Origin: Fimbriimonas sp.
GTDB lineage: Bacteria; Armatimonadota; Fimbriimonadia; Fimbriimonadales; Fimbriimonadaceae
NCBI GenBank assembly: GCA_031292555.1
Contig: JARLGV010000106.1
Location: 1-64,000, forward strand
DNA length: 64,000 nucleotides
Reading direction: 5' to 3'
Made by a program: the position numbers and the translations under genes. The notes below the pieces were generated by a model. That model saw nothing but the letters and a program-made list of their open reading frames with translations, was not told where the DNA came from and ran no database searches. This document shows, piece by piece, positions 2,937-60,562 of the stretch (positions are counted from its first letter, which is position 1; each line of letters starts with the position of its first letter).

Positions 2937-2942
2937 GAGTTT
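2937..2942 (-). promoter_or_regulatory. Candidate -10 box five bases before the amidase ATG
   Basis: TAAACT fits the TANNNT consensus and stands five bases before the start codon, so a transcript would begin at or next to the ATG. It overlaps the addA stop codon; the -35 is weak (TTACGC with about 19 bases spacing). Confidence 0.35.
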
Positions 2943-5274
2943 ACACTGGGCGAGGCTGTGGCGCGTAAGTGCTCCGGACCCTAATGCCAGGCATTTGCGC
3001 CGGATCGACGAAGCCGTCGATTAACTTCGAGGCAGTCGTAGCGTTGCTAGGCGGAACGATGCAAATGCAGAGTCGGCGTTGAGCACGAGTCAGGGCGACG
3101 TAAAGGACCCGCCGCTCCTCCGCTTCGTTTCGTGCCTTCTTCATATCTGTCAGCAGTTTGTGCATGATGCCTTGTCCCTTGCCAAACTTGGTAGCGACCA
3201 TTCCAAGGTTCGGTTCAACGACCACGTCCCTTGCACGGCTGGTCAGCGCCTTGTCGGTCTGCGGGAGGACGACGACCGGCCATTCGAGTCCCTTCGCTTT
3301 GTGGATCGTGAGGATCTTGACTAGGTCTGCGTCGTTGTCGTCGGCGGGAGCATCGCCCTCTTTGTGGCGCAGGTCTTGGATCTCGCGGATCCGGTCGGAA
3401 TACTCCAAAGGCCCCAATTCGGGTTCCTCGGTTGCAAGAGTAAGGAGCTTGCGGGCGTTGGCCAGCATCTGGTCGCCTTTGGCACGACGCGCCAGGGCAG
3501 GCAGGTAATCCGAGCAGGCATATATCTCGGCAAGCACCTCCCAGGCCGACAGACGGTCCGCAATCTGGTTCAGTGGCAGATACCACTCCAGAAAGGACCT
3601 GAGTTTCAGGCCATCGCCTTCCACCGGAGGTTCGAAGTCGCCGAGGCGCTCAATGACGAATGACTCCATTCCCAAAAGCGCGATCGAGTCGAGAGATAGC
3701 CCAACCATCGGGCTCCGTAAAGTCGCAAGAAGCGCGAAATCGTCATAAGGATCGGCAGTAGCCCGAAGGACGTTGGCCAGATCGCGCACCTCTAGCCGTG
3801 TGTAGAACCGTTCGGACCCGCCGGTTATTCGGTTCGCGATTTCGGCTTCGTCAAGCACTTTCTTCATCGCCAATGCGCCGGCTCCGTCGCGCACGAGGAT
3901 CGCGATATCCCCCTTCTCGACTCCTTCGTCTATCAATTCCCGAATGTAGCCGGCGGTCGAAGTGGGTGATTTTGCCGGCTGGCGCCAGATCTCCACTCCC
4001 TCATAGCTTCGGTCGTCGTCCAAGTCGAAGTCCATCGGACCAGTGTTCGTTTGCATCGGGGCATACTCTTGACCCCACAAGCCGCTAAATACGGCGTCGA
4101 CGAAGTTGAGTATCCCTGGGACCGACCGCCAGTTCTTGAGAAGTCGCTTTGTTGTACCGGAAACCGCACGAGATCGGAAAAGCTCGACATCGGCTTGCCG
4201 GAAGGCGTAGATCGATTGCTGAGCGTCGCCAACCATCATCACTCGCTCACATCCAAGATTGTCCAAGAGGCTGTACTGGATCGGATTGACGTCTTGCGAC
4301 TCGTCGACCATGATCACCAGATACTGACCCCGAATGCGTTCACGCGTGACTTGGGAATTCAAAAGGAGACGATTCGCCCTGATCTCGAGCGAGGAAAAAT
4401 CCAACTCCTGCAGCCTATCCATTTCGCGATCGAGCCGCCACCATGCCTCGCAAGCAAGATGCACCAGACCGCATGCGTGCAGCGCGCCCTCATACTCGCC
4501 ATCGGCATCCCCCTTCCCTCGCGCCCAACCGGGCACCGAAACGCTCGCTTCCTTGCACGCTTGCTGGGCGCGCTGCCTCAGGTCGGGAACATCCAGTTCG
4601 TCGAACACGCTCCGCGCACGCTCAGGAAGGCAATCCCGCATGACTTGTTCCCAAGTCTGCCTCAGCACGGTGGGGTTACTGAACCGGTCGACGACCGCCG
4701 TATAGTCGAATTTGCTTCCGCGCAATTCTCTCAGGACGGTCTCAACCGCCGATTCGAGGATCCCATAGGGAGACTTGTTGTCTCCGAACCCCTGACGTTT
4801 ACCGGCAAGGAATCGAATCAGAGCCTCCGCCTCCGGCTCGTCGTCAAACGGCGAGGCGAGCACCTCACGCACGCAGTTCGTCACCAGTCGTGCCGAACGG
4901 TCCTCCGCCATAATCTCAAATTGAGGATCAAGACCCGCTTCGAGGCTGTTCTCCCGTAGGAGGCGTTCGCAGAAGGAGTGGATCGTTTGAATCGGTCCCG
5001 TCTCTGCAATTTGGGCCTGTTCCATAAGTCCCTTCTGCCGAAGCCGCTGTACGATGCGCTTCTTCATTTCGGCCGCCGCCTTCTTAGTAAAGGTGATCGT
5101 CAAGATCTGGTCGGGCTGGAGTAGCTCTTCCTCGACATGACGCAGATATCGTTCGACGAGCACAAACGTCTTCCCCGCACCTGCCGATGCAATGACCGTG
5201 AAGTTCGGCTCCGGCGCCTCGATCACTTGACGCTGCTCAGCCGTTGGAATTTGAGTTTTCGAGTCCGAACTCAA
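2941..5274 (-). CDS. addA: AddA-like UvrD-family helicase without C-terminal nuclease domain
   Basis: A 777-residue superfamily 1A helicase. Motif I is ASAGAGKT (about residues 29-36), motif Ia region TITFTKKAAAEMKKR, motif II MVDESQD, motif III GDAQQSIYAFRQAD, motif VI VLYVALTRAQRRL. The TTG start is chosen because it overlaps the addB stop as TTGA and has a very strong AGGAGGAGGAAGC ribosome site just upstream; the frame's ATG further upstream would extend deep into addB. AddA proteins are usually about 1200 residues and end in a RecB-type nuclease domain; this one stops some 40 residues after motif VI, so the nuclease domain is absent. With AddB it should form a helicase that processes DNA double-strand ends. 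The coupling implies equimolar synthesis. Confidence 0.87.
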   Translation of the reverse strand: MSSDSKTQIPTAEQRQVIEAPEPNFTVIASAGAGKTFVLVERYLRHVEEELLQPDQILTITFTKKAAAEMKKRIVQRLRQKGLMEQAQIAETGPIQTIHSFCERLLRENSLEAGLDPQFEIMAEDRSARLVTNCVREVLASPFDDEPEAEALIRFLAGKRQGFGDNKSPYGILESAVETVLRELRGSKFDYTAVVDRFSNPTVLRQTWEQVMRDCLPERARSVFDELDVPDLRQRAQQACKEASVSVPGWARGKGDADGEYEGALHACGLVHLACEAWWRLDREMDRLQELDFSSLEIRANRLLLNSQVTRERIRGQYLVIMVDESQDVNPIQYSLLDNLGCERVMMVGDAQQSIYAFRQADVELFRSRAVSGTTKRLLKNWRSVPGILNFVDAVFSGLWGQEYAPMQTNTGPMDFDLDDDRSYEGVEIWRQPAKSPTSTAGYIRELIDEGVEKGDIAILVRDGAGALAMKKVLDEAEIANRITGGSERFYTRLEVRDLANVLRATADPYDDFALLATLRSPMVGLSLDSIALLGMESFVIERLGDFEPPVEGDGLKLRSFLEWYLPLNQIADRLSAWEVLAEIYACSDYLPALARRAKGDQMLANARKLLTLATEEPELGPLEYSDRIREIQDLRHKEGDAPADDNDADLVKILTIHKAKGLEWPVVVLPQTDKALTSRARDVVVEPNLGMVATKFGKGQGIMHKLLTDMKKARNEAEERRVLYVALTRAQRRLCICIVPPSNATTASKLIDGFVDPAQMPGIRVRSTYAPQPRPV

Positions 5275-8159
5275 GCTTCCTCCTCCTCTAAGGCGAATGG
5301 CGAGTCGTCCTCGCCGAAGCCCTGCGACCGGCGACAGAGTTCGCCGTAATCGCACCAGGCGCAATGCTCACCTCGCGTTGCCTCGACTCGTCCCTCCATG
5401 ATCGTCTGCACCGCTGTTCGAAGCGACTTCTTCACCTGATCGTAGAACTGCTTCTTCGCTTCGCTCAGGTCGTCGGCAGTGGCGAGATCGACGACCTGCA
5501 AACCGTCCACCGCGCTTGAGGCAAGCTCACGCGATGCGTTCCTTCCCAGAATGACCAAGGACCGCTTGGAGCCTGTCGTCTCCATCTCAATCGCCCCGTC
5601 TCGCCCCGGCTCGTGGACCGCCAGTAGGTGAAGTCCAAGATACAGTCGGTCAGAATCCGTCATCGATTTTGGATCGGCGTTCGTTGAGCCGTAGATGTGG
5701 GCCACGTTGTAGCCTCCCAGCCGCGAGATGCCGGCCAAAGTACCTTCAAGCTTGACCCCGCCGGGCATGACGTTCTTGGTGTACTCCCCACCGAAAGCGA
5801 CGCTTTGTTTGAGGCTGCCTGCGTCCTTGGTCCACTTCTCTCGTGAACGCTCCTCTCGTCGGAGCCAATCGCGGATCAACCGCTGGCCACCAGCGCGAAG
5901 TAGATTCATCTCCCAGTCGGGAACGTCCGCGTATAGTAGATCCAACTCGGACTCGAGCGCGCCCTGCAACGCATGCTCCGCATCCGCGAGATCCTGCTTC
6001 GAGAGAAGCTGGGCAGACTGGGGCAGTTTCCTTAAGGAGCCCCAACGTTCCGATTGTCGCTTGACCCTAAGGTTGAGACGATATCGGACAAGGTACAGAA
6101 ACGGACACTGTAAGGCATCGCGCAGCATGTGCGGCATGAACGGCGAACCGTCCGGCGGGCGAACTGCATTCTTTGCCGCTTCGGTCACCAGTTCAAGCGG
6201 AAGCGGCGACTCTGTTGGCCCTTCAATCGCCTGGCGCAAACGTCTGTCGGCATCGAACAGACTCTCTTCTCCCAAGGGAGCCAATTCCTGGCGCGGATAG
6301 TCGTGGGTATGGATTCTCGATTCACCGCCCATCGCTCGCTCCGCCTCGGTCAGATAGAAGGCCGGGATGTTGTCCCTTTGATCGTCGGCCAGAGGATAGC
6401 TGAATACGATCTCCGACTTACCTGCCGCACAAACCCGGTAGAACTCATCTCGCTCCTTCTGAGCCTTCGACTCAGAATCCGCGAGTTTCGGTGCGAAGGA
6501 CCGCAAGGCGCTGATGGCATGACGCTCCGCGTCGGTGAGGATCGGATCCTCCGACCGACGCCTCGGAAACACTCCCTCAAGCATGCCCAGTACGTGGATA
6601 CGTTCGATATCACCGAACAGCGCGGGGTCGGAGGCCACCCGTATTCCCTCCTCTGCGGTAGGAATGCTGACGTCACCGGACCGCCATATCCGTTCGCATA
6701 GCCTTGCGAAGCCTTCCAATGAGGTCTTCGACGGTTCGGTAACGTTGTCTACTGAGATGTGGTTTGCCAACAGGCGCTCCATCTGATTGAGCGCGCGCCG
6801 GTCACGCTCGTCCATCAGGCCGCCCTTGTTCTCCAGCCGGGCCCAGGGCAGACGCTGATCCCGGTTGAACTCCTGCAACAGCCCGAACCACTCGGGAAGA
6901 CTCCATCCGGAGTTGGCTGCCTTGCGCCGCCAATCCAGGATCGCTACCAACCATTCGTGCGATTCCGTGTGTTCCTTGGCCCAGTTCTCCAAAGTCTCCC
7001 ATTGCGCCTGTTTCTGGGCATAGCAAGTGCGAAGCTGTGTCCCCAACTCGTTCTGGTTCGGTCCCGATAGGCGGAGGTAACTGCTACGCAAGACAGTAGC
7101 GAGTGAGCGCACATCATTCGAAGCACTGAACTGAATGGCCGAAAGCGTTAGCCTTGCGAACGAGTTCGTGAGTAGCGGCGCACGTCGCGTCATGCGGATC
7201 GGAATGGCCAGCCGCTTGGCTGCCGCCTCGATCAACGGAGCATACGACTCCAAGTCTCGGACATAGATTCCGGTTCGGTCGGGCCGAGCGGCGGATGCAG
7301 ATCCCCGCAAAGCCCATTCGACTTCGGCGAGAGGATCGGCAGCGCTGACTTTGGTGACCCGCACCGCTTCATCAGGCTCGGACCGATCGGTGAACAAATT
7401 GCGCAGCAGTTGGTTGACGGGGCCGATCGTCCCCGGTTTGACTCCGAGTTGATCGATCATCGCCGTCGCCCCGCGGAAGATATTGGCGTCGGATGCATGA
7501 CGATCGAAAGCAATTGTGACGTCGATTCCCTGTCGAGAGGCCCATCGGAGCCAATCAACTCTCAGCGGACACTCCTCAGCCCCGGCTAGGACCAAGATCC
7601 GCGACTGATCTCCCTCAACCTCCATCACCGAGTCCAAGCAGCCTCGGATGTGCTGACTGTGCTGATGTCGGCCCAAGCGCTCTAGCACCTCGGCGACCGC
7701 AAGATCGATTTCCGCCAGGTCGTTCAGTTTGCGCATCAACCTGGGCTCGGCTCCTCTGGCCAGTTCCTTCATCTCGGCGGCGTCGACCCCCCAAAGATGA
7801 AGTTCCTCCAATGTCCGCATGAGGGCTTCGTGGAAACCCGGAAAGTCCCGGCACCGATAGAAGGGCGAATCGGACTCCAAACCCCGGACGGAGTAGGCCA
7901 ACGCAGCTTCTTTATGTCCGCTCTGGGCGAGCGGCAACGCCTCCTCGCCGCAGACGACCAGGAAGCTTCTGACGACTTCGGCAAAGGAAAGAACCTCGAG
8001 CGGAGAGTCTTCACCGAGGATTTGCCGGCATGCCGGCAACATCGAGTCAGCAAACGCGGTCACTACTCCCTCGGGCTTTTTGCTGAAATCCCGGAGGATC
8101 GACCCCAAGCTTGTCGAACCCGGTATTGCTCTCAGGACCCTGATTCGCCCAGTCGACAT
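5271..8159 (-). CDS. addB: AddB-like protein: inactive helicase fold plus degenerate PD-(D/E)XK nuclease domain
   Basis: A 962-residue partner of the adjacent helicase. The middle has the AddB-type segment VLGMLEGVFPRRRSEDPILT. The C-terminal 280 residues have the architecture of an AddB/RecB nuclease with an iron-sulfur staple: Cys685 (ALQCPFLYLVRYRL) plus Cys933, Cys936 and Cys942 (HCAWCDYGELC). The nuclease signatures, normally GxIDRID followed by DYK, read GTLAGISR (806-813) and AHIYGS (820-825), so the metal-binding Asp and catalytic Lys appear replaced. No Walker A motif is seen at the N terminus. The stop codon is used in a TTGA overlap to start addA. The start is divergent from the next plus-strand gene, 18 bases away. 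Confidence 0.83.
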   Translation of the reverse strand: MSTGRIRVLRAIPGSTSLGSILRDFSKKPEGVVTAFADSMLPACRQILGEDSPLEVLSFAEVVRSFLVVCGEEALPLAQSGHKEAALAYSVRGLESDSPFYRCRDFPGFHEALMRTLEELHLWGVDAAEMKELARGAEPRLMRKLNDLAEIDLAVAEVLERLGRHQHSQHIRGCLDSVMEVEGDQSRILVLAGAEECPLRVDWLRWASRQGIDVTIAFDRHASDANIFRGATAMIDQLGVKPGTIGPVNQLLRNLFTDRSEPDEAVRVTKVSAADPLAEVEWALRGSASAARPDRTGIYVRDLESYAPLIEAAAKRLAIPIRMTRRAPLLTNSFARLTLSAIQFSASNDVRSLATVLRSSYLRLSGPNQNELGTQLRTCYAQKQAQWETLENWAKEHTESHEWLVAILDWRRKAANSGWSLPEWFGLLQEFNRDQRLPWARLENKGGLMDERDRRALNQMERLLANHISVDNVTEPSKTSLEGFARLCERIWRSGDVSIPTAEEGIRVASDPALFGDIERIHVLGMLEGVFPRRRSEDPILTDAERHAISALRSFAPKLADSESKAQKERDEFYRVCAAGKSEIVFSYPLADDQRDNIPAFYLTEAERAMGGESRIHTHDYPRQELAPLGEESLFDADRRLRQAIEGPTESPLPLELVTEAAKNAVRPPDGSPFMPHMLRDALQCPFLYLVRYRLNLRVKRQSERWGSLRKLPQSAQLLSKQDLADAEHALQGALESELDLLYADVPDWEMNLLRAGGQRLIRDWLRREERSREKWTKDAGSLKQSVAFGGEYTKNVMPGGVKLEGTLAGISRLGGYNVAHIYGSTNADPKSMTDSDRLYLGLHLLAVHEPGRDGAIEMETTGSKRSLVILGRNASRELASSAVDGLQVVDLATADDLSEAKKQFYDQVKKSLRTAVQTIMEGRVEATRGEHCAWCDYGELCRRSQGFGEDDSPFALEEEEA
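5277..5288 (-). promoter_or_regulatory. Strong ribosome binding site deciding the TTG start of addA
   Basis: On the minus strand the last codons of addB read GAGGAGGAGGAA, a near-perfect anti-16S match ending a few bases before the TTG at 5274. This is the best reason for placing the addA start inside the addB stop codon. Confidence 0.75.
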
Positions 8160-21611: not shown

Positions 21612-24600
21612 TTACTGGAGGATGGTCAGACCGGCGGAGACCGTCTTCGTGCCCAAACTTGCTTTGACCGTCGCAGAGCCCTCTTTGAGCGGGCTGACTG
21701 CGAATGTAGCCGAATTCGAACCGGCAGTCACAATTACCGATGCAGGCACTGAAGCCAAGGTCGGATTCGCCGAACTTAAGGCAACCGTGACGCCCGAAGG
21801 TCCCGCCTTGCCGCTCAGGGTGACCTTACCGGTGACCGCCTTCGAACCGGACAGGTAGACGAGAGTTGGGGCTAGAGTGAGCCCGGTCAGAGTTGCCGGA
21901 GTCACCGTGACCACACACGTCACCGTCGCTTCGCCAAGCGATGCAAAGACCGTCACCTGGGTGGGCTTGTCGACCGTTTGAGTGGTGGCCGTGAACTTCG
22001 CCGTCTTGGTTCCGGCCGGGATCGTGACTGAACCCGGCACCGATACCGAAGGATCGGTCGAACTCAATGCGACCAACGCGCCACCGGTCGGAGCCGGGAT
22101 ACTCAACGTCACCAAGCCGCCGTTTGTCGAGTTGCCCCCCACGATCGTCGCCGGCGTCAGGCTGACTGACTGGATCCCGGGCGGGTTGACGACAAGGGTC
22201 GCCGTTTCAGTCACTCCATTGGCGGTTGCAGTGATCGTTACCGCCTGCGGCGCCGAGACCGTCGAAGTCGCAACCGAAAAGGTCTTGCTGCTCGTCGACC
22301 GGGCAATCGTCACTGACGACGGCACCTTGGCAGCGGCGGAGTTTGAGGACGTAAGCGTCACGACGACTCCGGATGCCCCGGCCTTCCCATTCAGGACGAC
22401 GGTCCCGACGAGCTTCTGGGTTCCTCCAACTGCAGTCGCCGGAGCAACCGTAACTGAAGTCAGCACCGCAGGAAGCACCGTCACCGAACAGGAGTTCGTG
22501 CTTCCGTTCAGCGATGCGGCAATCGTCGCGGATGTGCTCGAGTTGACGCCAGTCGTTGTGCCGGTAAACGTCGCCGACGATGCGCCCGCCGACACGCGCA
22601 CGACGGCGGGAACGAGGACGCTCGAGCTGTTCGATTTGAGGGTGACGGTTAGCCCGGTGCTGGGGGCGGGACCGCTGAGTGACACCAGGCCACCGGTCAG
22701 CGGGATTCCTCCCGTCACGGTGGATGGCGTTACGCTGATCCCCGCGACCGTCGGAGGAGTTACCTGAAGAGTAGCCTTCACGACCTTGCCGCCAAAGGTC
22801 GCCGACAAGGTCACCGAACGGGCAGTGACAACGGGAGTCGTCGATACCGTAAAGCTCGCCGAATTCGCTCCGGCGGCAATCGTTACCGTAGCCGGTGTCG
22901 TGGCGACCGCCTTGTCCGAGCTGGACAGGGTCACCGTCGCTCCCGAAGCCCCGGCAAATCCGCTGAGGTTCACGGTTCCGGTCACCGAAGTTGAGGATCC
23001 GCCCACGACTGATGTCGGCGACACCAGGAGATTCGAAAGGCCCGACGGTTGCAGGGTCAAAATGCACGACTTCTCGGTCGAGCCGTAGTAGGCGGTGATC
23101 GTGACGTTGAGCGCCTTGGTCACCCCCAATGTCGTCACGTTGAAGCTGGCCGAGGTCGCCCCCTCCGCTATCGTCACCGATGTCGGCATGACCGCGTTGA
23201 GACTGGTCGACGTCACGGTCAGCGCTGCGCCGCCTGTGGGAGCCGGATTGGCCAACGTCACTGTGCCAGTGGTGTTATTCCCGCCGACCACCGAGTTGGG
23301 GGTTACCGAAACGCTCGTGAGGTCAGCCGGATTCACAGTCAAATCCGCATTAGCGGAAACGCCGTTGATCGTGGCTGAGATCGTAACGGTCTGCGTTATC
23401 GGCGGGGAAAGTGCGGTCACCGTGAAGGTTGCCGATACGCCGCCAGCCGGCACAGTCACGGATGCCGGCACTGTCGCAACCGTCGCGTCGGAACTTGATA
23501 GCGTCAATGTCGTGCCGGACGGACCGGCAGGAGCGTTCAACAGGATCGTGCCGGTTGAGGTCTTCCCGCCTACTACTGCCGTCGGATTCAGGTAGAGCGA
23601 GGTGAGGCCCGCCGTCTGCACCGTGATCGAAGTGGTGGCGTTTACTCCGCCTGAGGTCGCGGTGATTATGGCGGCGGTGTTAACCGAAACGGGATTCGTG
23701 TTTACGGCGAAGGAAGTAAAGGTTGCGCCGCCGGGCACGACGACGAACGGAGGAACAACCACCGCCGGATCGCTGCTAACCAGGGCCACAACATCTCCGC
23801 CGGCAGGAGCGGCGGCAGTGAGGGACACAAAGCCGGTGGCACGGGCGCCTTCCTGAACCGTGTCCGGGGTAGTTGAAACGGCATTCACCGGAACCGTGTT
23901 TACTTCGGTTCCGATCGCATGGAGGTTCCCATCGGCGCATCCGACATAAACCACGCCATTCGCCCCGATTGCGGGAGAGGAAGTGATCGCACCGTTCGCG
24001 AGGAAGTACCAGATCCCCCAACCGTCAGGCGCGGTCGCCCATAGGTGGCCGGAGCTGTCTCCAACGTAGATCGTTCCATCGGCGCCGATTGCCGGCGACG
24101 ATGTGGTCTGCCCCTCGGTAACGTCCCACCACTTGAGGTAACCGTTGGCGGTGAAGGCGTTCAGCGTGTTGCCGGAGCCGACATAGACCGAACCGTCTGG
24201 CCCGATAGCTGGGGATGAGTAGATCGCCGAGTAGGTGTAGAACGACCACTTGAGGGCCCCACCTGGGCTGACGGCGTATATATTGCCGTCCTGGGAGCCC
24301 ACGTAGATCGTTCCGTCGGATCCGATCACCGGCGAGGAAACAATCCCGCTATTGGTTGAGAAAGACCATTGGACCGTTCCATTCGGGTTGATCGCGTAAA
24401 GCTTGCTATCAGTGGACCCGACGTAGATCGTACCGTCCGATCCAATTGCTGGAGAAGACTGAACCGGATTGCCCGTCACGAAGGACCACAGCATCACGCC
24501 GCCCGATGAAATTGCATACACGCTGTTGTCGTCGGACCCGACATAAACCGTGCCGTCACTTCCCACCGCCGGCGAAGACTGGACGACGTTGCCCGTGAGG

Positions 24601-25103
24601 AAAGCCCATTTCTTGGTGCCGTCGGCATTCAACGCATAGATATTCGCGTCGCTGGACCCGAAGTAGATCGTGCCGTCGGAAGCGATCGCCGGGCTCGAGA
24701 TCACGCTGCCGCCCGTTGCATAGCGCCACTTCATGGTGCCGTTTGGATTGACGGCATAGAGGTTGCCGTCGTTTGAACCGACGTAGACCGTGCCATCCGC
24801 ACCAATTGTCGGTGACGACTGTATGTTGTTCACCGTTGTGAAGCTCCAAAGCAGCGTGCCGTTGGAGCCGCCCGACACCGCCAAGCCGGTATTGGCGTTC
24901 GTGCTGTGGAATTTTGGCCACGGCGAACCGTACTGGAGACTTAACCGGTTAACCCTTGAGACAGCCTCGTTTCGATTCACGATCGGCAATTGCCGGACAT
25001 GCCGGGATGCCGAGCCCGACGCAATGGGTCCTCGGAGCTGCGCCACACTAGTCGATGCCAAGGCAACGACGCCCAGTATCACCGAAAAGCACACTCGATT
25101 CAT
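21612..25103 (-). CDS. Large secreted PQQ-like propeller protein with eight Ig-like repeats
   Basis: A 1163-residue exported protein. Signal peptide MNRVCFSVILGVVALASTSVAQ. Residues about 55-400 form a PQQ-type beta-propeller, opening SPWPKFHSTNANTG and repeating a roughly 40-residue blade of the form SSPAIGSDGTIYVGS-x-D-x-N-x-YA. The remaining 760 residues are eight Ig-like repeats of about 85 residues (VVGGxxSTGTVTLxxPAPxGG, then VTVPAG, ATFTV). No sorting signal, LPXTG or PEP-CTERM end is seen. It is a smaller paralogue of the 1975-residue protein at 54.6-60.6 kb. The ATG with GAGGT seven bases upstream is chosen over a TTG nine codons earlier. A surface adhesion or display role is inferred. 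Confidence 0.9.
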   Translation of the reverse strand: MNRVCFSVILGVVALASTSVAQLRGPIASGSASRHVRQLPIVNRNEAVSRVNRLSLQYGSPWPKFHSTNANTGLAVSGGSNGTLLWSFTTVNNIQSSPTIGADGTVYVGSNDGNLYAVNPNGTMKWRYATGGSVISSPAIASDGTIYFGSSDANIYALNADGTKKWAFLTGNVVQSSPAVGSDGTVYVGSDDNSVYAISSGGVMLWSFVTGNPVQSSPAIGSDGTIYVGSTDSKLYAINPNGTVQWSFSTNSGIVSSPVIGSDGTIYVGSQDGNIYAVSPGGALKWSFYTYSAIYSSPAIGPDGSVYVGSGNTLNAFTANGYLKWWDVTEGQTTSSPAIGADGTIYVGDSSGHLWATAPDGWGIWYFLANGAITSSPAIGANGVVYVGCADGNLHAIGTEVNTVPVNAVSTTPDTVQEGARATGFVSLTAAAPAGGDVVALVSSDPAVVVPPFVVVPGGATFTSFAVNTNPVSVNTAAIITATSGGVNATTSITVQTAGLTSLYLNPTAVVGGKTSTGTILLNAPAGPSGTTLTLSSSDATVATVPASVTVPAGGVSATFTVTALSPPITQTVTISATINGVSANADLTVNPADLTSVSVTPNSVVGGNNTTGTVTLANPAPTGGAALTVTSTSLNAVMPTSVTIAEGATSASFNVTTLGVTKALNVTITAYYGSTEKSCILTLQPSGLSNLLVSPTSVVGGSSTSVTGTVNLSGFAGASGATVTLSSSDKAVATTPATVTIAAGANSASFTVSTTPVVTARSVTLSATFGGKVVKATLQVTPPTVAGISVTPSTVTGGIPLTGGLVSLSGPAPSTGLTVTLKSNSSSVLVPAVVRVSAGASSATFTGTTTGVNSSTSATIAASLNGSTNSCSVTVLPAVLTSVTVAPATAVGGTQKLVGTVVLNGKAGASGVVVTLTSSNSAAAKVPSSVTIARSTSSKTFSVATSTVSAPQAVTITATANGVTETATLVVNPPGIQSVSLTPATIVGGNSTNGGLVTLSIPAPTGGALVALSSTDPSVSVPGSVTIPAGTKTAKFTATTQTVDKPTQVTVFASLGEATVTCVVTVTPATLTGLTLAPTLVYLSGSKAVTGKVTLSGKAGPSGVTVALSSANPTLASVPASVIVTAGSNSATFAVSPLKEGSATVKASLGTKTVSAGLTILQ
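21615..23905 (-). repeat. Tandem Ig-like repeat-coding array (eight units)
   Basis: Eight consecutive coding units of about 250-270 bases, each encoding a VVGG-like turn, a TGTVTL strand, a GG-V-L-SS strand and a VPAG-ATF strand. Units are diverged at DNA level, so this is an old protein-domain repeat and not recent tandem duplication. Confidence 0.7.
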
Positions 25104-25331
25104 GAAAGCTACCTCAGCAAGTTTATTCAAAAGTTCTTCTCGCGAACACGATTTGAAGCTATCTCGGCATAAAGCACAAGAAACCTAAACAACAGGACGA
25201 TTGATGGGTGGCGAGCGATGCTCGCGAGGGTGAGTCACGACGGAGAAAGGCGCTTGAATTCGGATCGAAACGTTAAGGCTTGCAGAAAACGACTTCCAAA
25301 TTGTCCGCATTCGTGGAAAGCTAGTGTCGAC

Positions 25332-54634: not shown

Positions 54635-57600
54635 TCACTTGGTTACGGTCAAATTCGCGCTCTTGGACGATGTTGCAAGGGTCGCGGATATCTTGGCTGT
54701 CGTCTGGGCAGTGACTGCCGTTGTCGTCACCGTGAACTTGACCGAAGTCTTCCCGCTCGGGATCGTGACGGTTGCCGGAACGCTCGCGGCTGACGAACTG
54801 CTTCCAAGTGACACCGTCAAGCCCGCGGCAGGGGCCGCCACCGAGACGGTGACCGTGCCGGTCGACGTCTTCCCGCCCTTTACGCTGGTCGGGCTAAGTG
54901 TCAAGCCAGTAATCGCAGGTGGCTGGATTGTCAGGCTTGCCGATTGGGTGGTTCCGTTCAGGCTCGCCTGAATCTTGACGGTCTGAGTGCTCGCCACCGC
55001 CGTCGTCTTGACGGTGAACGTCGCCTTCGTCGCGCCTGCCGGGACCGTCACCAAACTGGGAACGGTCGCAGCGGACGAACTGCTCGACAGGCTCACCGAG
55101 AGTCCACCGGAGGGCGCCGCCCCTGAGAGCGTGACGGCGCCCGTCGAGGTCTTGGAGCCCACCAGCGTCGTCGGGTTCAAGCTAAGCGAAGTCAGGTTCG
55201 GAGGCAAGATCGTCAGGGTTGCCGTCATCGAACTGGAACCCAGCGTCCCCATGATCGTAACGACCGTACGAGATGCGACCGCGAACGTCTTGACCGTGAA
55301 CGTCGCCGAACTCTTCCCTGCTCCGATCGAGACGCTTGCCGGAACGGTCGCCTTGGCCGAACTGCTCGTGAACTTAACGGTAGAGCCTCCCGTCGGAGTT
55401 GGGCCAGTCAGCGTGACCGTGCCGGTCGAGGAGACGGTTCCGCTCACTGTCGCCGGGTTCAGCGAGAGAGAGGCGATTGCGGGAGGGTTGACGGTCAGCG
55501 TCTGGCTCAACGTGACCGATCCATGGCTCGCCGAGATCGTCGCCGACTTCAGGGCCGTGACCGGCGTGGTCGTCACCGACAACGTCGCGCTCGTCTGACC
55601 GGGGGGAATCGTGACCGACGCGGGAACCTTGGCGACGGTGGACGCGCTGCTCGACAGAGTTACCGTAAGTCCGCCGCTTGGAGCCGGTCCGTTGAGCGAG
55701 ACCGTTCCCGTCGACGAAGCCCCTCCCGTCACTGCCGACGGGTTAATCGCCAGCGAAACCAATGCGAGCGGACTGATCGTAAGGGTCGCCGTCTTGGACG
55801 TGCCTCCCTGAGAAGCGGTGATGGTCGCGGTCACCGAATTTGTGACGCTTCCCGTGCTGACGGTGAACGTCGCGCTGCTTGCTCCGGCAGGAACCGTCAC
55901 CGACGACGGGACCGACGCGGAGGAGTTGTTCGACGACAGGCTCACCGCCATTCCGCCCGGAGGCGCAATCCCGCTCAGCGTGACCGTCCCGGTTGCCGGG
56001 TTTCCGCTCGCGACACTCGACGGGGTCACCGTCAGACCGGAGAGACCGGCGGGCGTCAGCGTCAGCGTCGCCGTCTTGGACGTAGCGCCCAATGTCCCCG
56101 TGATGGTGACGTTTGTGTTCGCGGAGACCCCGGATGTCGCGATGTTGAACGTCGCGCTTGTTGCCCCGGCCGCGACCGTCACCGAGGACGGCGGCTGGGC
56201 GCTTTGAGGGCTCGCCGTCAAAGCCACACTCGTCCCTCCCGACGGCGCGGGGCCGTTAAGCGTAACCGTCCCCGTGCTGGGGTTACCACCGATGAGCGAC
56301 GACGGCGAAACCGACAGGCCGGTCAAAGCCGGCGAGGAGATTGTAAGCGTCGCCGACTTCTGAACCCCCGCCAATGTGCCGGAGATCGTCGCCGTGACGG
56401 TCGCACTCACCGGAGTCGTGTTCACCGTAAACGTCGCCGTAGTCGCTCCCGCCGCCACCGTTACCGAGGCTGGGAGGGTCGCGGCCGACGACGTCGAACT
56501 CAGGGCGATGCTTGCACCACCGGTTGGGGCAGGGCCGCTCAAGGTTACGGTTCCGGACGAAGAAAGTCCGCCGATCACGCTGGTCGGATTGAGGGCCAGG
56601 CTTTGGAGCACCGCCGGATTGATCGTAAGCGTCGCCGTTTTGGAAGTGCTGCCTTGGGTGGCAGTAATCGTAGCGGTAACCAGGGCGGATACGGGCGTCG
56701 TGTTGACCGAGAACGTGGCGGTAGTCGAGCCGCTGGAAACCGTAACACTTGCCGGAGCGGATGCGCTAGAGCTACTCGACGATAGCACCACCTGGGTACC
56801 GATTGGGCCGGCGGGCCCGTTGAGGGTTACGGTGCCGGTTGATGAACTTCCACCTATCACCGACGTTGGGGTCAATGTCACGGAACTCAACGTCGCTGCC
56901 GCTATCGTCAGCGTGGCTTGCAGGCGTGTGGAGACGTAAGTTGCCGTAATCGTTGACGTCGTCGTCGACGAGACGCCAGATGTCGTGACCTTGAAGGTCG
57001 CCGTCGAAGCGCCCGCCGGTACGGTTACCGTGGGTGGGACGCCTGCCGTCGTTCCGGTGGCAGAAAGGCTCACTGCGACACCGCCTGTCGGCGCATTGCC
57101 GTTCAAGGTGACGGTGCCCGTCGAATTGGTACCGCAAACAACCGTGGTCGGAACGAGCGCGAAGCCGGTCAATGACGGTGCGCGTATCGTGAGCGAAGCA
57201 GTGGCCGACACGCCCGCCACGGTCGCCGTGATGTCAGCCGCAGTATCCGAGGCGACCGGCGAGGTCGCAATGGTGAAAGTCGCGGTAGTCGAACCAGCCG
57301 CTACTGTCACGGTCGAGGGAGTTGAAGCAGAGGCGCTATCCGAGTTCAGGGTCACGACAACGCCCCCAGCCGGGGCTGCCTGATCCAGGGTGACGGTGCC
57401 GATCGATGAGATGCCGCCAATCACCGAAAGCGGAGCCAGCTTCAAGTCGGTCGGCACGGGAGGCGTTACGCTAAGGCTCGTCGTGATCGACGTGATATCG
57501 ACGGTCGCAGTAATCGTCGTATCGGTCTGAGTCGATACGGGCGTCGTGGTCACGTTGAACGTGGCTTGATACTGGCCGGACGGGACGATCACCGTCGCAG

Positions 57601-60562
57601 GAGGAACAGCGCTCGGAGAACTTGAGCTGAGGGTCACCGTAACGTCCCCGGGAACCAGGGCGCTCAATTGCACGGTGCCGGTTACGGTTCCGCCACCTTC
57701 TACCTGGCTGGGCGACATGGTAAGCGTGACCGGTACAGGTGGGGACAGAGTCAGGGTCGTCGTTTGCGTCACCGACCCTGACGTGGCCGAGATCGTGACC
57801 GGAGTCACGACCGCAACCGTTGTACTCGTGATCGTGAAATCCGCACTCGTGTTCCCCGAGGTCACCTTCACATAAGATGGGACTCTCACATTGGGTGAGG
57901 AACTCTCAAGGAATACGATATCACCGCCCGACGGAGCAGGCTGGCCGATCGTGACCGTGCCAACGGAGTTCGTACCCCCAACGACATCAGTCGGGTTGAC
58001 GGTCAGGCCGGTGGCGGGAATCGTAGTAACCTCCGTTCCGACCGCGTAGAAGCTACCGTCTGCGCCCCAGAAGTAGACGACGCCGTCTGCCCCAATCGAA
58101 GCTTCGCCGTATGTGCCTCCGTTCGGTTGAACGCTCCACAGCTGGGTTCCGCTTGGGCTCACCGCATAGAATGCACCGAACAGCGAGCCGATGAAGATAG
58201 TGCCGTCGGCCGACACGACGGGCGAACCCGTCACCGTGCCGCCAAGCGACAACTGCCATACTACGCTCCCGTTGGCCGAGACCGCATAGAGCACTGAGCT
58301 CTGTCCGCCCGACACGTAGACCGAACCGTCCGCTCCCAAAGCCGGCGCGCTGATCTGGCCGGATTGGACAGACACGCTCCACTTCTTCGTTCCATCCTTC
58401 TTGATCGCAAACAGTGTTCCGCTGTTGGCCCCAATGTAGACGACTCCCAACGAGTCGATCTCGGGAGAACACTGGATCTTGCTCTGCGTTCCGTACTTCC
58501 ACTTGACGGAGCCATCCGGGTTGACTGCGTAGAGGTTCTGATCGTCAGACCCAATATAGATAGTTCCATCCGAGCCGATCGCCGGAGACGACTCGATCGT
58601 GCCTCCAGTCGTCAAACTCCATTTGACGGTCCCGTCCGGCTTGACGGCATACAGAACAACATCGCATGCGAAGTAGATCGTGCCATCCGCACCGATTGCG
58701 GGAGACGATGACGAGCTTGGCGTAGACTCGCCCGTCACCTGCAAGGTCCACCTAAGCGTTCCATCTGGGTTCAATGCATATAGGTAACCGGCAAGAGACG
58801 CAGCGTAGATCGTGCCGTCGGCCGCGATTGCTGGGGTTGCCCAAGCGTTGCCAATCGGAAGAAAACGCCATTTGATCGAGCCGTCCGAGTTCAGCGCGTA
58901 AATGCGATCGTTCCAAGCGTTGACATAGATGGTTCCATCGGCTCGGACCGCGGCAGATGCGTTCACCGCGGCTCCCAGAGGCCATGTCCAGCGAATGGCG
59001 TTATTGGCGCCGCCTCCAATGGCGACACCGGAGTTGGCGTTGTTTTGGTGGTACTTGGGCCAAGGCGATGGGCGAGAGGTTTTCAACGTGATCGACGCGG
59101 TCACCGAAACACCACCGGACGTCGCAGTCAGAATTGCCGACTTGCCCGAGGTCACAGAGGCGCTGGTCACCGGGAAACTCGCTGTCTTTGAACCGGCGGA
59201 GACGATCACGAATAGGGGGGTCATAACCGAGTGATCGCTGCTTTGCAGAGCAACCTCGTCGCCTCCGCTTGGCGCTGCTTGGGTCAGCGTTACGGTCGCC
59301 GTCGTCCCGATTCCGCCCACAACCGTGTCAGGGTTCAAAGTGAGCGAGGCAACCGGTGTCGTCGTCACCTGCGAACCGACGGCGTATACGCTTCCATCGT
59401 TGGAGCCCACATAAACCACTCCGTCGAGTCCGATGGCAGGCGAGGACAGAATGGGACCGCCGGTCGCGAACTGCCACCGCTTCGTCCCGTTCGGGTTGAG
59501 AGCGTACAAGTTGCCGTCATCGCAGCCCGAATATACGGTCCAGTCGGTCCCAATTGCAGGAGATGAATGTACTGGGCCGCTCGTCGAATACGCCCAAACC
59601 TGGCGTCCGTTCACTTCGTCGACCGCATAGACCTTGCTATCGAGACCACCGAAGAACAGAACGGCATCCGGCGAGGCCGCGGGGGTCGACCAAAGGGCGC
59701 CACCGGCGGTAAACGGATTCCAACGATCGCCATGCGAGTCAAAGGTGTAGATGTTGTTGTCCGGACAAGCTACATACAGTGCCCCATTGAGGCCAACCAC
59801 CGGCGAAGCTTGGATTGCCTGAGGGACTGAGCTGTACCAGAGCTGCGATCCGCTCGAATTCAAAGCATAGATGTTCGCATCGTCCGATCCGAAATAGATG
59901 GTGCCGTTCTGATCCACCGCAGGTGCGACATGAATGGCGCCTTTGGTGCCAAACACCCACTTCTTGGCGCCTGCACTCGTGATCGCATAAAGACTACCGT
60001 CGGCAGAACCGACGTAAAGAGTGCCATCCGACGCAATCGCGGGCGACGAGTCGATCGCCCCACCGGTTTGGTATCTCCACATCACCGTCCCGCTCGCACG
60101 GACGGCGTAGAGGTAGCCGTCCGACGATCCGACGTAAACAGTGCCATCTGATCCAATCGCTGGCGAAGAGCTGATTGCGCCCCCGGTTGCTGCATTCCAC
60201 AACTTTGCGCCGTTGAGGCCGATGGCATAGAGGTTTCCGTCAGAGCAACCCACGTACACTGTGCCGTCTGAACCTATAGCCGGCGAACTAGAGAACTTAG
60301 CCCCGGCAACCGTGAATTTCCACCGCAAGAGACCGTTGGTTCCTCCTCCCGCGCCGACGCCGGAATTCAAATTGTTCTGGTGAAATCTCGGCCACGGAGA
60401 ACCCGGCTGAAATAGTGCCGGCCGTGAAACCCTTCCCGGCGCCTTATCCGCCACCGAGTTCGCATGACTGGCAACGGCAAAGGCACCCATGTTCCACGAA
60501 CATGCCAAGGCAGACATTACTAGCACGAGGAACCGAAGACGCAAGGCAGATACATTCATCAT
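54635..60562 (-). CDS. Giant secreted protein: two PQQ-like propellers and thirteen Ig-like repeats
   Basis: A 1975-residue exported protein, largest in the window. Signal peptide LRFLVLVMSALACSWNMGAFA. First propeller about 55-400 (opens SPWPRFHQNNLNSG), one Ig-like repeat, then a second propeller about 495-845 that reopens with SPWPKYHQNNANSG, then twelve tandem Ig-like repeats of about 88-95 residues to the C terminus. Blades repeat SSPAIGSDGTIYVGSDD-type phrases; Ig units repeat VIGGxSSTGTVTLNGPAPxGG and VTVAAGATTATF. There is no sorting or anchoring motif. It appears to derive from the same ancestor as the 1163-residue protein at 21.6 kb, with an extra propeller-Ig unit added at the front. 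Surface or matrix role inferred. Two adjacent ATGs mark the start. Confidence 0.92.
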   Translation of the reverse strand: MMNVSALRLRFLVLVMSALACSWNMGAFAVASHANSVADKAPGRVSRPALFQPGSPWPRFHQNNLNSGVGAGGGTNGLLRWKFTVAGAKFSSSPAIGSDGTVYVGCSDGNLYAIGLNGAKLWNAATGGAISSSPAIGSDGTVYVGSSDGYLYAVRASGTVMWRYQTGGAIDSSPAIASDGTLYVGSADGSLYAITSAGAKKWVFGTKGAIHVAPAVDQNGTIYFGSDDANIYALNSSGSQLWYSSVPQAIQASPVVGLNGALYVACPDNNIYTFDSHGDRWNPFTAGGALWSTPAASPDAVLFFGGLDSKVYAVDEVNGRQVWAYSTSGPVHSSPAIGTDWTVYSGCDDGNLYALNPNGTKRWQFATGGPILSSPAIGLDGVVYVGSNDGSVYAVGSQVTTTPVASLTLNPDTVVGGIGTTATVTLTQAAPSGGDEVALQSSDHSVMTPLFVIVSAGSKTASFPVTSASVTSGKSAILTATSGGVSVTASITLKTSRPSPWPKYHQNNANSGVAIGGGANNAIRWTWPLGAAVNASAAVRADGTIYVNAWNDRIYALNSDGSIKWRFLPIGNAWATPAIAADGTIYAASLAGYLYALNPDGTLRWTLQVTGESTPSSSSSPAIGADGTIYFACDVVLYAVKPDGTVKWSLTTGGTIESSPAIGSDGTIYIGSDDQNLYAVNPDGSVKWKYGTQSKIQCSPEIDSLGVVYIGANSGTLFAIKKDGTKKWSVSVQSGQISAPALGADGSVYVSGGQSSVLYAVSANGSVVWQLSLGGTVTGSPVVSADGTIFIGSLFGAFYAVSPSGTQLWSVQPNGGTYGEASIGADGVVYFWGADGSFYAVGTEVTTIPATGLTVNPTDVVGGTNSVGTVTIGQPAPSGGDIVFLESSSPNVRVPSYVKVTSGNTSADFTITSTTVAVVTPVTISATSGSVTQTTTLTLSPPVPVTLTMSPSQVEGGGTVTGTVQLSALVPGDVTVTLSSSSPSAVPPATVIVPSGQYQATFNVTTTPVSTQTDTTITATVDITSITTSLSVTPPVPTDLKLAPLSVIGGISSIGTVTLDQAAPAGGVVVTLNSDSASASTPSTVTVAAGSTTATFTIATSPVASDTAADITATVAGVSATASLTIRAPSLTGFALVPTTVVCGTNSTGTVTLNGNAPTGGVAVSLSATGTTAGVPPTVTVPAGASTATFKVTTSGVSSTTTSTITATYVSTRLQATLTIAAATLSSVTLTPTSVIGGSSSTGTVTLNGPAGPIGTQVVLSSSSSSASAPASVTVSSGSTTATFSVNTTPVSALVTATITATQGSTSKTATLTINPAVLQSLALNPTSVIGGLSSSGTVTLSGPAPTGGASIALSSTSSAATLPASVTVAAGATTATFTVNTTPVSATVTATISGTLAGVQKSATLTISSPALTGLSVSPSSLIGGNPSTGTVTLNGPAPSGGTSVALTASPQSAQPPSSVTVAAGATSATFNIATSGVSANTNVTITGTLGATSKTATLTLTPAGLSGLTVTPSSVASGNPATGTVTLSGIAPPGGMAVSLSSNNSSASVPSSVTVPAGASSATFTVSTGSVTNSVTATITASQGGTSKTATLTISPLALVSLAINPSAVTGGASSTGTVSLNGPAPSGGLTVTLSSSASTVAKVPASVTIPPGQTSATLSVTTTPVTALKSATISASHGSVTLSQTLTVNPPAIASLSLNPATVSGTVSSTGTVTLTGPTPTGGSTVKFTSSSAKATVPASVSIGAGKSSATFTVKTFAVASRTVVTIMGTLGSSSMTATLTILPPNLTSLSLNPTTLVGSKTSTGAVTLSGAAPSGGLSVSLSSSSSAATVPSLVTVPAGATKATFTVKTTAVASTQTVKIQASLNGTTQSASLTIQPPAITGLTLSPTSVKGGKTSTGTVTVSVAAPAAGLTVSLGSSSSAASVPATVTIPSGKTSVKFTVTTTAVTAQTTAKISATLATSSKSANLTVTK
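54638..58020 (-). repeat. Tandem array of twelve Ig-like coding repeats
   Basis: Twelve consecutive units of about 265-290 bases, each with the VGG turn, TGTVTL strand, APSGG turn and VPAG-ATF strand. Similar composition makes long antisense frames, which are not genes. Neighbouring units are similar but clearly diverged, so recombination between them is possible but not evident. Confidence 0.75.

Follow-up and report, generated by a model that had tools for sequence, protein, structure and literature searches.

Resection by a nuclease is commonly regarded as what defines AddAB and RecBCD. The window studied here (64,000 nucleotides of a Fimbriimonas sp. contig, JARLGV010000106.1) holds an addB/addA pair in which a first-pass annotation had read both nuclease centres as lost, raising the question of what such a pair could do at a DNA end without cutting it.

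The addB/addA pair

Both genes were found where that annotation had placed them (Table 1). The addA start TTG at 5274 overlaps the addB stop TGA as TTGA, and is a likelier start than the far end of the open frame.

Table 1. Features of the addB/addA locus, in window coordinates
Feature	Position	Strand	Description and basis
addB	5271..8159	-	962 aa; AddB scaffold lacking Walker A and nuclease residues; ORF, TIGR02773 and PDDEXK_1 matches
addA	2941..5274	-	777 aa from likely TTG; open frame to 5364; SF1 helicase lacking the C-terminal nuclease domain
AddB nuclease-like domain, residues 679-943	5331..6125	-	PDDEXK_1 match; profile alignment with live AddB domains, probability 99.8%
GTLAGISR, dead motif replacing GxIDRID, residues 806-813	5721..5744	-	
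AHIYGS, dead motif replacing IDYK, residues 820-825	5685..5702	-	
Cys685, first Fe-S ligand	6105..6107	-	Alignment of AddBs
Cys933, Cys936, Cys942, other Fe-S ligands	5334..5363	-	Alignment of AddBs
AddA Walker A region ASAGAGKT, intact	5163..5190	-	

AddA keeps the motor and ends before the nuclease domain

Pfam matched AddA with UvrD_N and UvrD_C and with no nuclease family, and motif reading found every helicase motif intact, so that AddA carries the SF1 motor expected of an AddAB. The AlphaFold2 model of AddA (pLDDT 86) covers residues 7-957 of the about 1230 of Bacillus subtilis AddA (4ceh_A, Z 35.5) and then stops; in the B. subtilis protein the nuclease domain follows where this alignment ends. 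Across the AddAs of the order the median distance from motif VI to the C-terminus is 45-56 residues, and Walker A is kept in 79 of 80 AddAs (76/77 within f1, the family of the window, and f5, a second family). The Pfam result, the order-wide lengths and the model thus agree with the first-pass reading of a motor that is intact and stops just past motif VI, the active C-terminal nuclease domain of a standard AddAB being absent. A nuclease domain displaced by a frameshift past the addA stop, which the same annotation had named as a refuting result, was ruled out because a CN_hydrolase gene begins 9 bp past that stop and stop codons fill the other frames.

AddB keeps the fold and has lost the active site

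The Pfam PDDEXK_1 match to the AddB nuclease-like domain is weak (E 8e-9), and a phmmer search of AddB against PDB sequences gave nothing useful; the structure model did find AddB. This AlphaFold2 model, built with 29 related AddBs, is confident (pLDDT 87.4) and has B. subtilis AddB chains as its best matches (Foldseek E 1.5e-31). Aligned with 4ceh_B by VIA-align, it superposes 897 residues (model 5-954, rmsd 5.4, Z 29.4), and the best chains are all AddB (Z 28.6-29.4), giving an AddB fold over the whole length; AddB or RecC chains ranked lower in the structure alignment were not counted against kinship. Because the best matches of the model are B. subtilis AddB chains, we conclude that the nuclease-like domain is still present as a predicted fold.

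Profile-profile alignment with live AddB domains sets GTLAGIS against GVIDRID and VAHIYG against VIDYKL, and a multiple alignment agrees with this placing. The metal-binding Asp and the catalytic Lys are gone, as first proposed, and with them all the catalytic residues of the PD-(D/E)XK centre: E680, H714, E786, D809, D812, D822, K824 and Q840, invariant in live AddBs, are lost in f1. The four cysteines, read in the translation at the positions first given for them, stay at about 99% in f1 AddBs together with Arg943, and would still bind a putative Fe-S cluster of the four-cysteine kind that marks AddB. The reading that both nuclease centres of the pair are lost is therefore supported.

Could AddB still cut DNA through a rebuilt active site that escapes recognition? 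The kept fold and the purifying selection on the domain (below) would suit such a site, but the f1 alignment offers no conserved lysine anywhere in the nuclease-like domain and no conserved acidic pair and base in place of the triad, and the residues that have become newly conserved are E858 and R866. A triad rebuilt elsewhere in AddB, the other outcome that the first annotation had asked about, was accordingly rejected, every invariant live-site residue being lost as well, and we consider continued cutting by AddB highly improbable. Glu858 and Arg866 (window 5562-5588, minus strand) are conserved at 71% and 94% respectively in dead f1 AddBs and far less in live ones; they may serve a new role of the dead domain.

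Distribution and age of the loss

The clade with dead AddB lies within Fimbriimonadales (Armatimonadota) and comprises Fimbriimonadaceae and a sister family. A scan of genome contigs with AddB alone gave no loci, and loci were recovered with an alignment as query; AddB is present in 111 of the 113 genomes of the class. We read the nuclease motifs in 108 AddBs. DYK has lost its D and K in all 88 AddBs of f1 (80/80) and f5 (8/8), while D, D, K and the QxxxY glutamine are kept in all 20 from f2, f3 and f4, the families with live AddB. Loss in 88/88 of two families against 0/20 of the sister families is far beyond chance. In f5, and in about 30% of f1, the first Asp is still there, a pattern suggesting that DYK was lost first. 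The four Fe-S cysteines occur in every AddB sequence that covers them (about 99% in f1). Walker A of AddB is lost in all 83 dead AddBs tested; among live relatives several keep it and others are without it. Some f2 genomes (e.g. G041, G051 and G037) have addA far from addB or on another contig, though their AddB is nuclease-live.

In a tree of 52 AddBs, built with the nuclease domain excluded, all dead AddBs form one clade (100/100), requiring a single change on the tree; the AddB nuclease was therefore lost once, anciently. Elsewhere in the phylum, those AddBs that can be read carry the live motif. The short AddA is found throughout the order and also, outside the class, in one genome (G202); full-length AddAs with a nuclease motif occur in G228 and G225. 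One locus (L208, in G191) was left out of the AddA comparison for its masked bases and interrupted frame. The AddA truncation is older than the AddB loss, and the phylum thus contains pairs with two, one and no nucleases.

For the dead AddB domain, eight close pairs give dN/dS values of 0.02-0.14, similar to those of the rest of AddB, and one more distant pair (G027-G100) gives 0.28. With values this low, the domain is under strong purifying selection and is kept for a function. The same values, together with the census, refute the idea that the pair is an assembly error, a pseudogene or a gene being lost: the frames are open in dozens of independent assemblies, complete chromosomes included, and the tree has one ancient loss. 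We give this explanation practically no weight.

Several relatives carry, beside the nuclease-free pair, an additional and apparently complete AddAB with PDDEXK_1 in both subunits (G011:C1 187940-191955, G012:C9, G005:C146, G009:C266, G027:C42 and G038:C40). This extra AddAB looks sporadic and was possibly acquired; in the few f1 genomes that have it, the genome of the window not among them, it would mask a defect.

Other nucleases and repair genes

No full-length AddAB, AdnAB or RecB was found elsewhere in the genome of the window; the AddA search there returned only AddA and one UvrD-like protein, and no RecB with a nuclease. NurA had no match in this genome and matched in 9 of 61, 8 of which belong to f2; SbcD gave weak matches, none above the cut-off. 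The genome does encode RecJ (G000:C77), RecO (G000:C128) and RecR (G000:C56), and a stand-alone Cas4/COG2887-like PD-(D/E)XK protein of 257 aa (G000:C76:81264-81986; L082:9232-10005) with an intact GRIDRVD/VVDYKSG site and four cysteines, its sole other PDDEXK_1 protein.

The first-pass annotation had held that the pair would need a separate nuclease or have another role at DNA ends, and had advised searching the genome for a RecJ- or AdnB-like nuclease. The search found two candidates, RecJ and the stand-alone protein; both are equally common where AddB is live, so that neither is tied to a takeover. This bears on the explanation that a dedicated nuclease, likeliest the stand-alone protein or RecJ, docks on AddAB and restores a helicase-nuclease in trans. 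The intact site and four cysteines of the stand-alone protein would suit that role, and in G039 (f4) its gene is two genes away from addB, a CorA gene lying between them, and in G049 (f2) it is near addB and addA, a closeness that is suggestive of partnership at most. But in the genome of the window the gene and addAB are on different contigs, and across the class, where the stand-alone nuclease and RecJ are near-universal, neither co-occurs with AddB loss; being present also where AddB is live, the stand-alone nuclease does not track that loss. We regard docking of a nuclease in trans as rather unlikely, though likelier than the other rivals.

Relation to known systems

The pair resembles B. 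subtilis AddAB (PDB 4CEH, 3U4Q) in gene pair, AddA motor, full-length AddB fold and four-cysteine Fe-S staple. B. subtilis AddAB however has two active nuclease domains, and here both are lost, with the AddB Walker A as well. It is not RecBCD, which has RecB and RecD motors, RecC and a RecB nuclease, the AddA search having shown no RecB with a nuclease in the genome; nor is it AdnAB, with motor and nuclease motifs in both subunits, this AddB lacking Walker A and nuclease residues and this AddA its nuclease domain. Gene order, motor, fold and Fe-S ligands make it an AddAB, but it lacks the two defining nuclease features, so that the pair is a nuclease-free AddAB variant and not a standard AddAB helicase-nuclease.

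We found no published natural AddAB without any nuclease in open-licence papers. Partial parallels exist. The addA of Wolbachia strains from isopods has its nuclease domain naturally deleted (PMC4224334), but that deletion is recent and confined to one endosymbiont group, and loss of the AddB centre is not mentioned in the available part of that paper. AdnAB without nuclease has also been described (Gupta 2017, as cited in PMC12748557). A doubly nuclease-dead B. subtilis AddAB, likewise a motor whose two nuclease centres are switched off, supports repair at a nick, for which the helicase and RecFOR are needed and RecJ is not (PMC12748557); that enzyme is engineered, whereas the present state is natural and ancient, and known from sequence and models. 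Pseudomonas syringae Lz4W can do without the RecB nuclease, with help from RecJ (PMC2828478).

RecC is a helicase-like scaffold subunit whose dead nuclease domain forms a strand aperture in RecBCD (PMC1185551), and an inactivated domain guiding a strand is what we propose for this AddB. RecBCD nevertheless keeps an active nuclease in RecB, and this AddB keeps its Fe-S ligands and is AddB by sequence and fold; RecC and this AddB are a case of parallel evolution.

Proposed function

We infer from the loss of both nucleases that this AddAB probably acts without resection. In our proposal AddA would be the single ATP-driven motor and AddB a non-catalytic scaffold, whose Fe-S-stapled nuclease-like domain would hold the broken duplex end and guide the unwound strand as in RecC. 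The two proteins would form a complex that binds the DNA end, separates the strands and exposes single-stranded DNA for SSB, onto which RecFOR would load RecA; where the 5' strand needs trimming, this may be done by RecJ, by the stand-alone Cas4-like nuclease or by some other enzyme. AddB requires its Fe-S cluster to bind double-stranded DNA, and loss of the cluster in AddAB harms that binding (PMC7311471), which would account for the retention of the cysteines despite the loss of the catalytic residues. The single motor, scaffold and Fe-S staple, the parallels in RecC and B. subtilis and the presence of RecJ, RecO and RecR favour an end processor that only unwinds. A possible objection is that the B. 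subtilis and P. syringae data come from mutants of other enzymes, in one condition each. On balance we think it probable that this is a natural AddAB that acts as a helicase and itself has no nuclease, with the Fe-S domain as DNA-end and strand guide, feeding SSB, RecFOR and RecA.

The pair might instead have left break repair for another job at DNA ends or forks, such as fork remodelling, with RecJ and another helicase repairing breaks. Loss of all cutting and of the AddB Walker A is a large change and would fit such a move, but nearly every genome of the class keeps the pair, with the AddB architecture complete and the Fe-S ligands in place; this speaks for a role in end binding that has been retained, and a helicase-only AddAB suffices for repair in B. 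subtilis (PMC12748557). We therefore think a change of job very unlikely.

The helicase-only reading can be extended to the lineage as a whole, which may start break recombination by strand separation alone: the sole catalytic centre would be one motor, the former nuclease would be an Fe-S clamp and strand guide that evolved in parallel to RecC, and cutting by the break-binding enzyme would not be universal in bacteria. This wider claim is one we put forward tentatively, being somewhat inclined to doubt it as a whole.

The B. subtilis work (PMC12748557) suggests that the helicase alone is enough, and evolution seems to have run the same experiment here. The helicase-only state seems to have been kept in dozens of genera, and the pairs of the sister families still have one nuclease. 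In this clade the parts played by Fe-S end binding, motor and nuclease come apart; the prediction is that this AddAB degrades linear DNA little and does not require chi to attenuate a nuclease.

Within the class, the described strain Fimbriimonas ginsengisoli Gsoil 348 has a complete genome (PMC4072686); AddA is not named in the main text of that report. Two very large proteins elsewhere in the window, of 1975 aa (54635-60562) and 1172 aa (21612-25130), have matches to PQQ/ACSF4-like beta-propellers.
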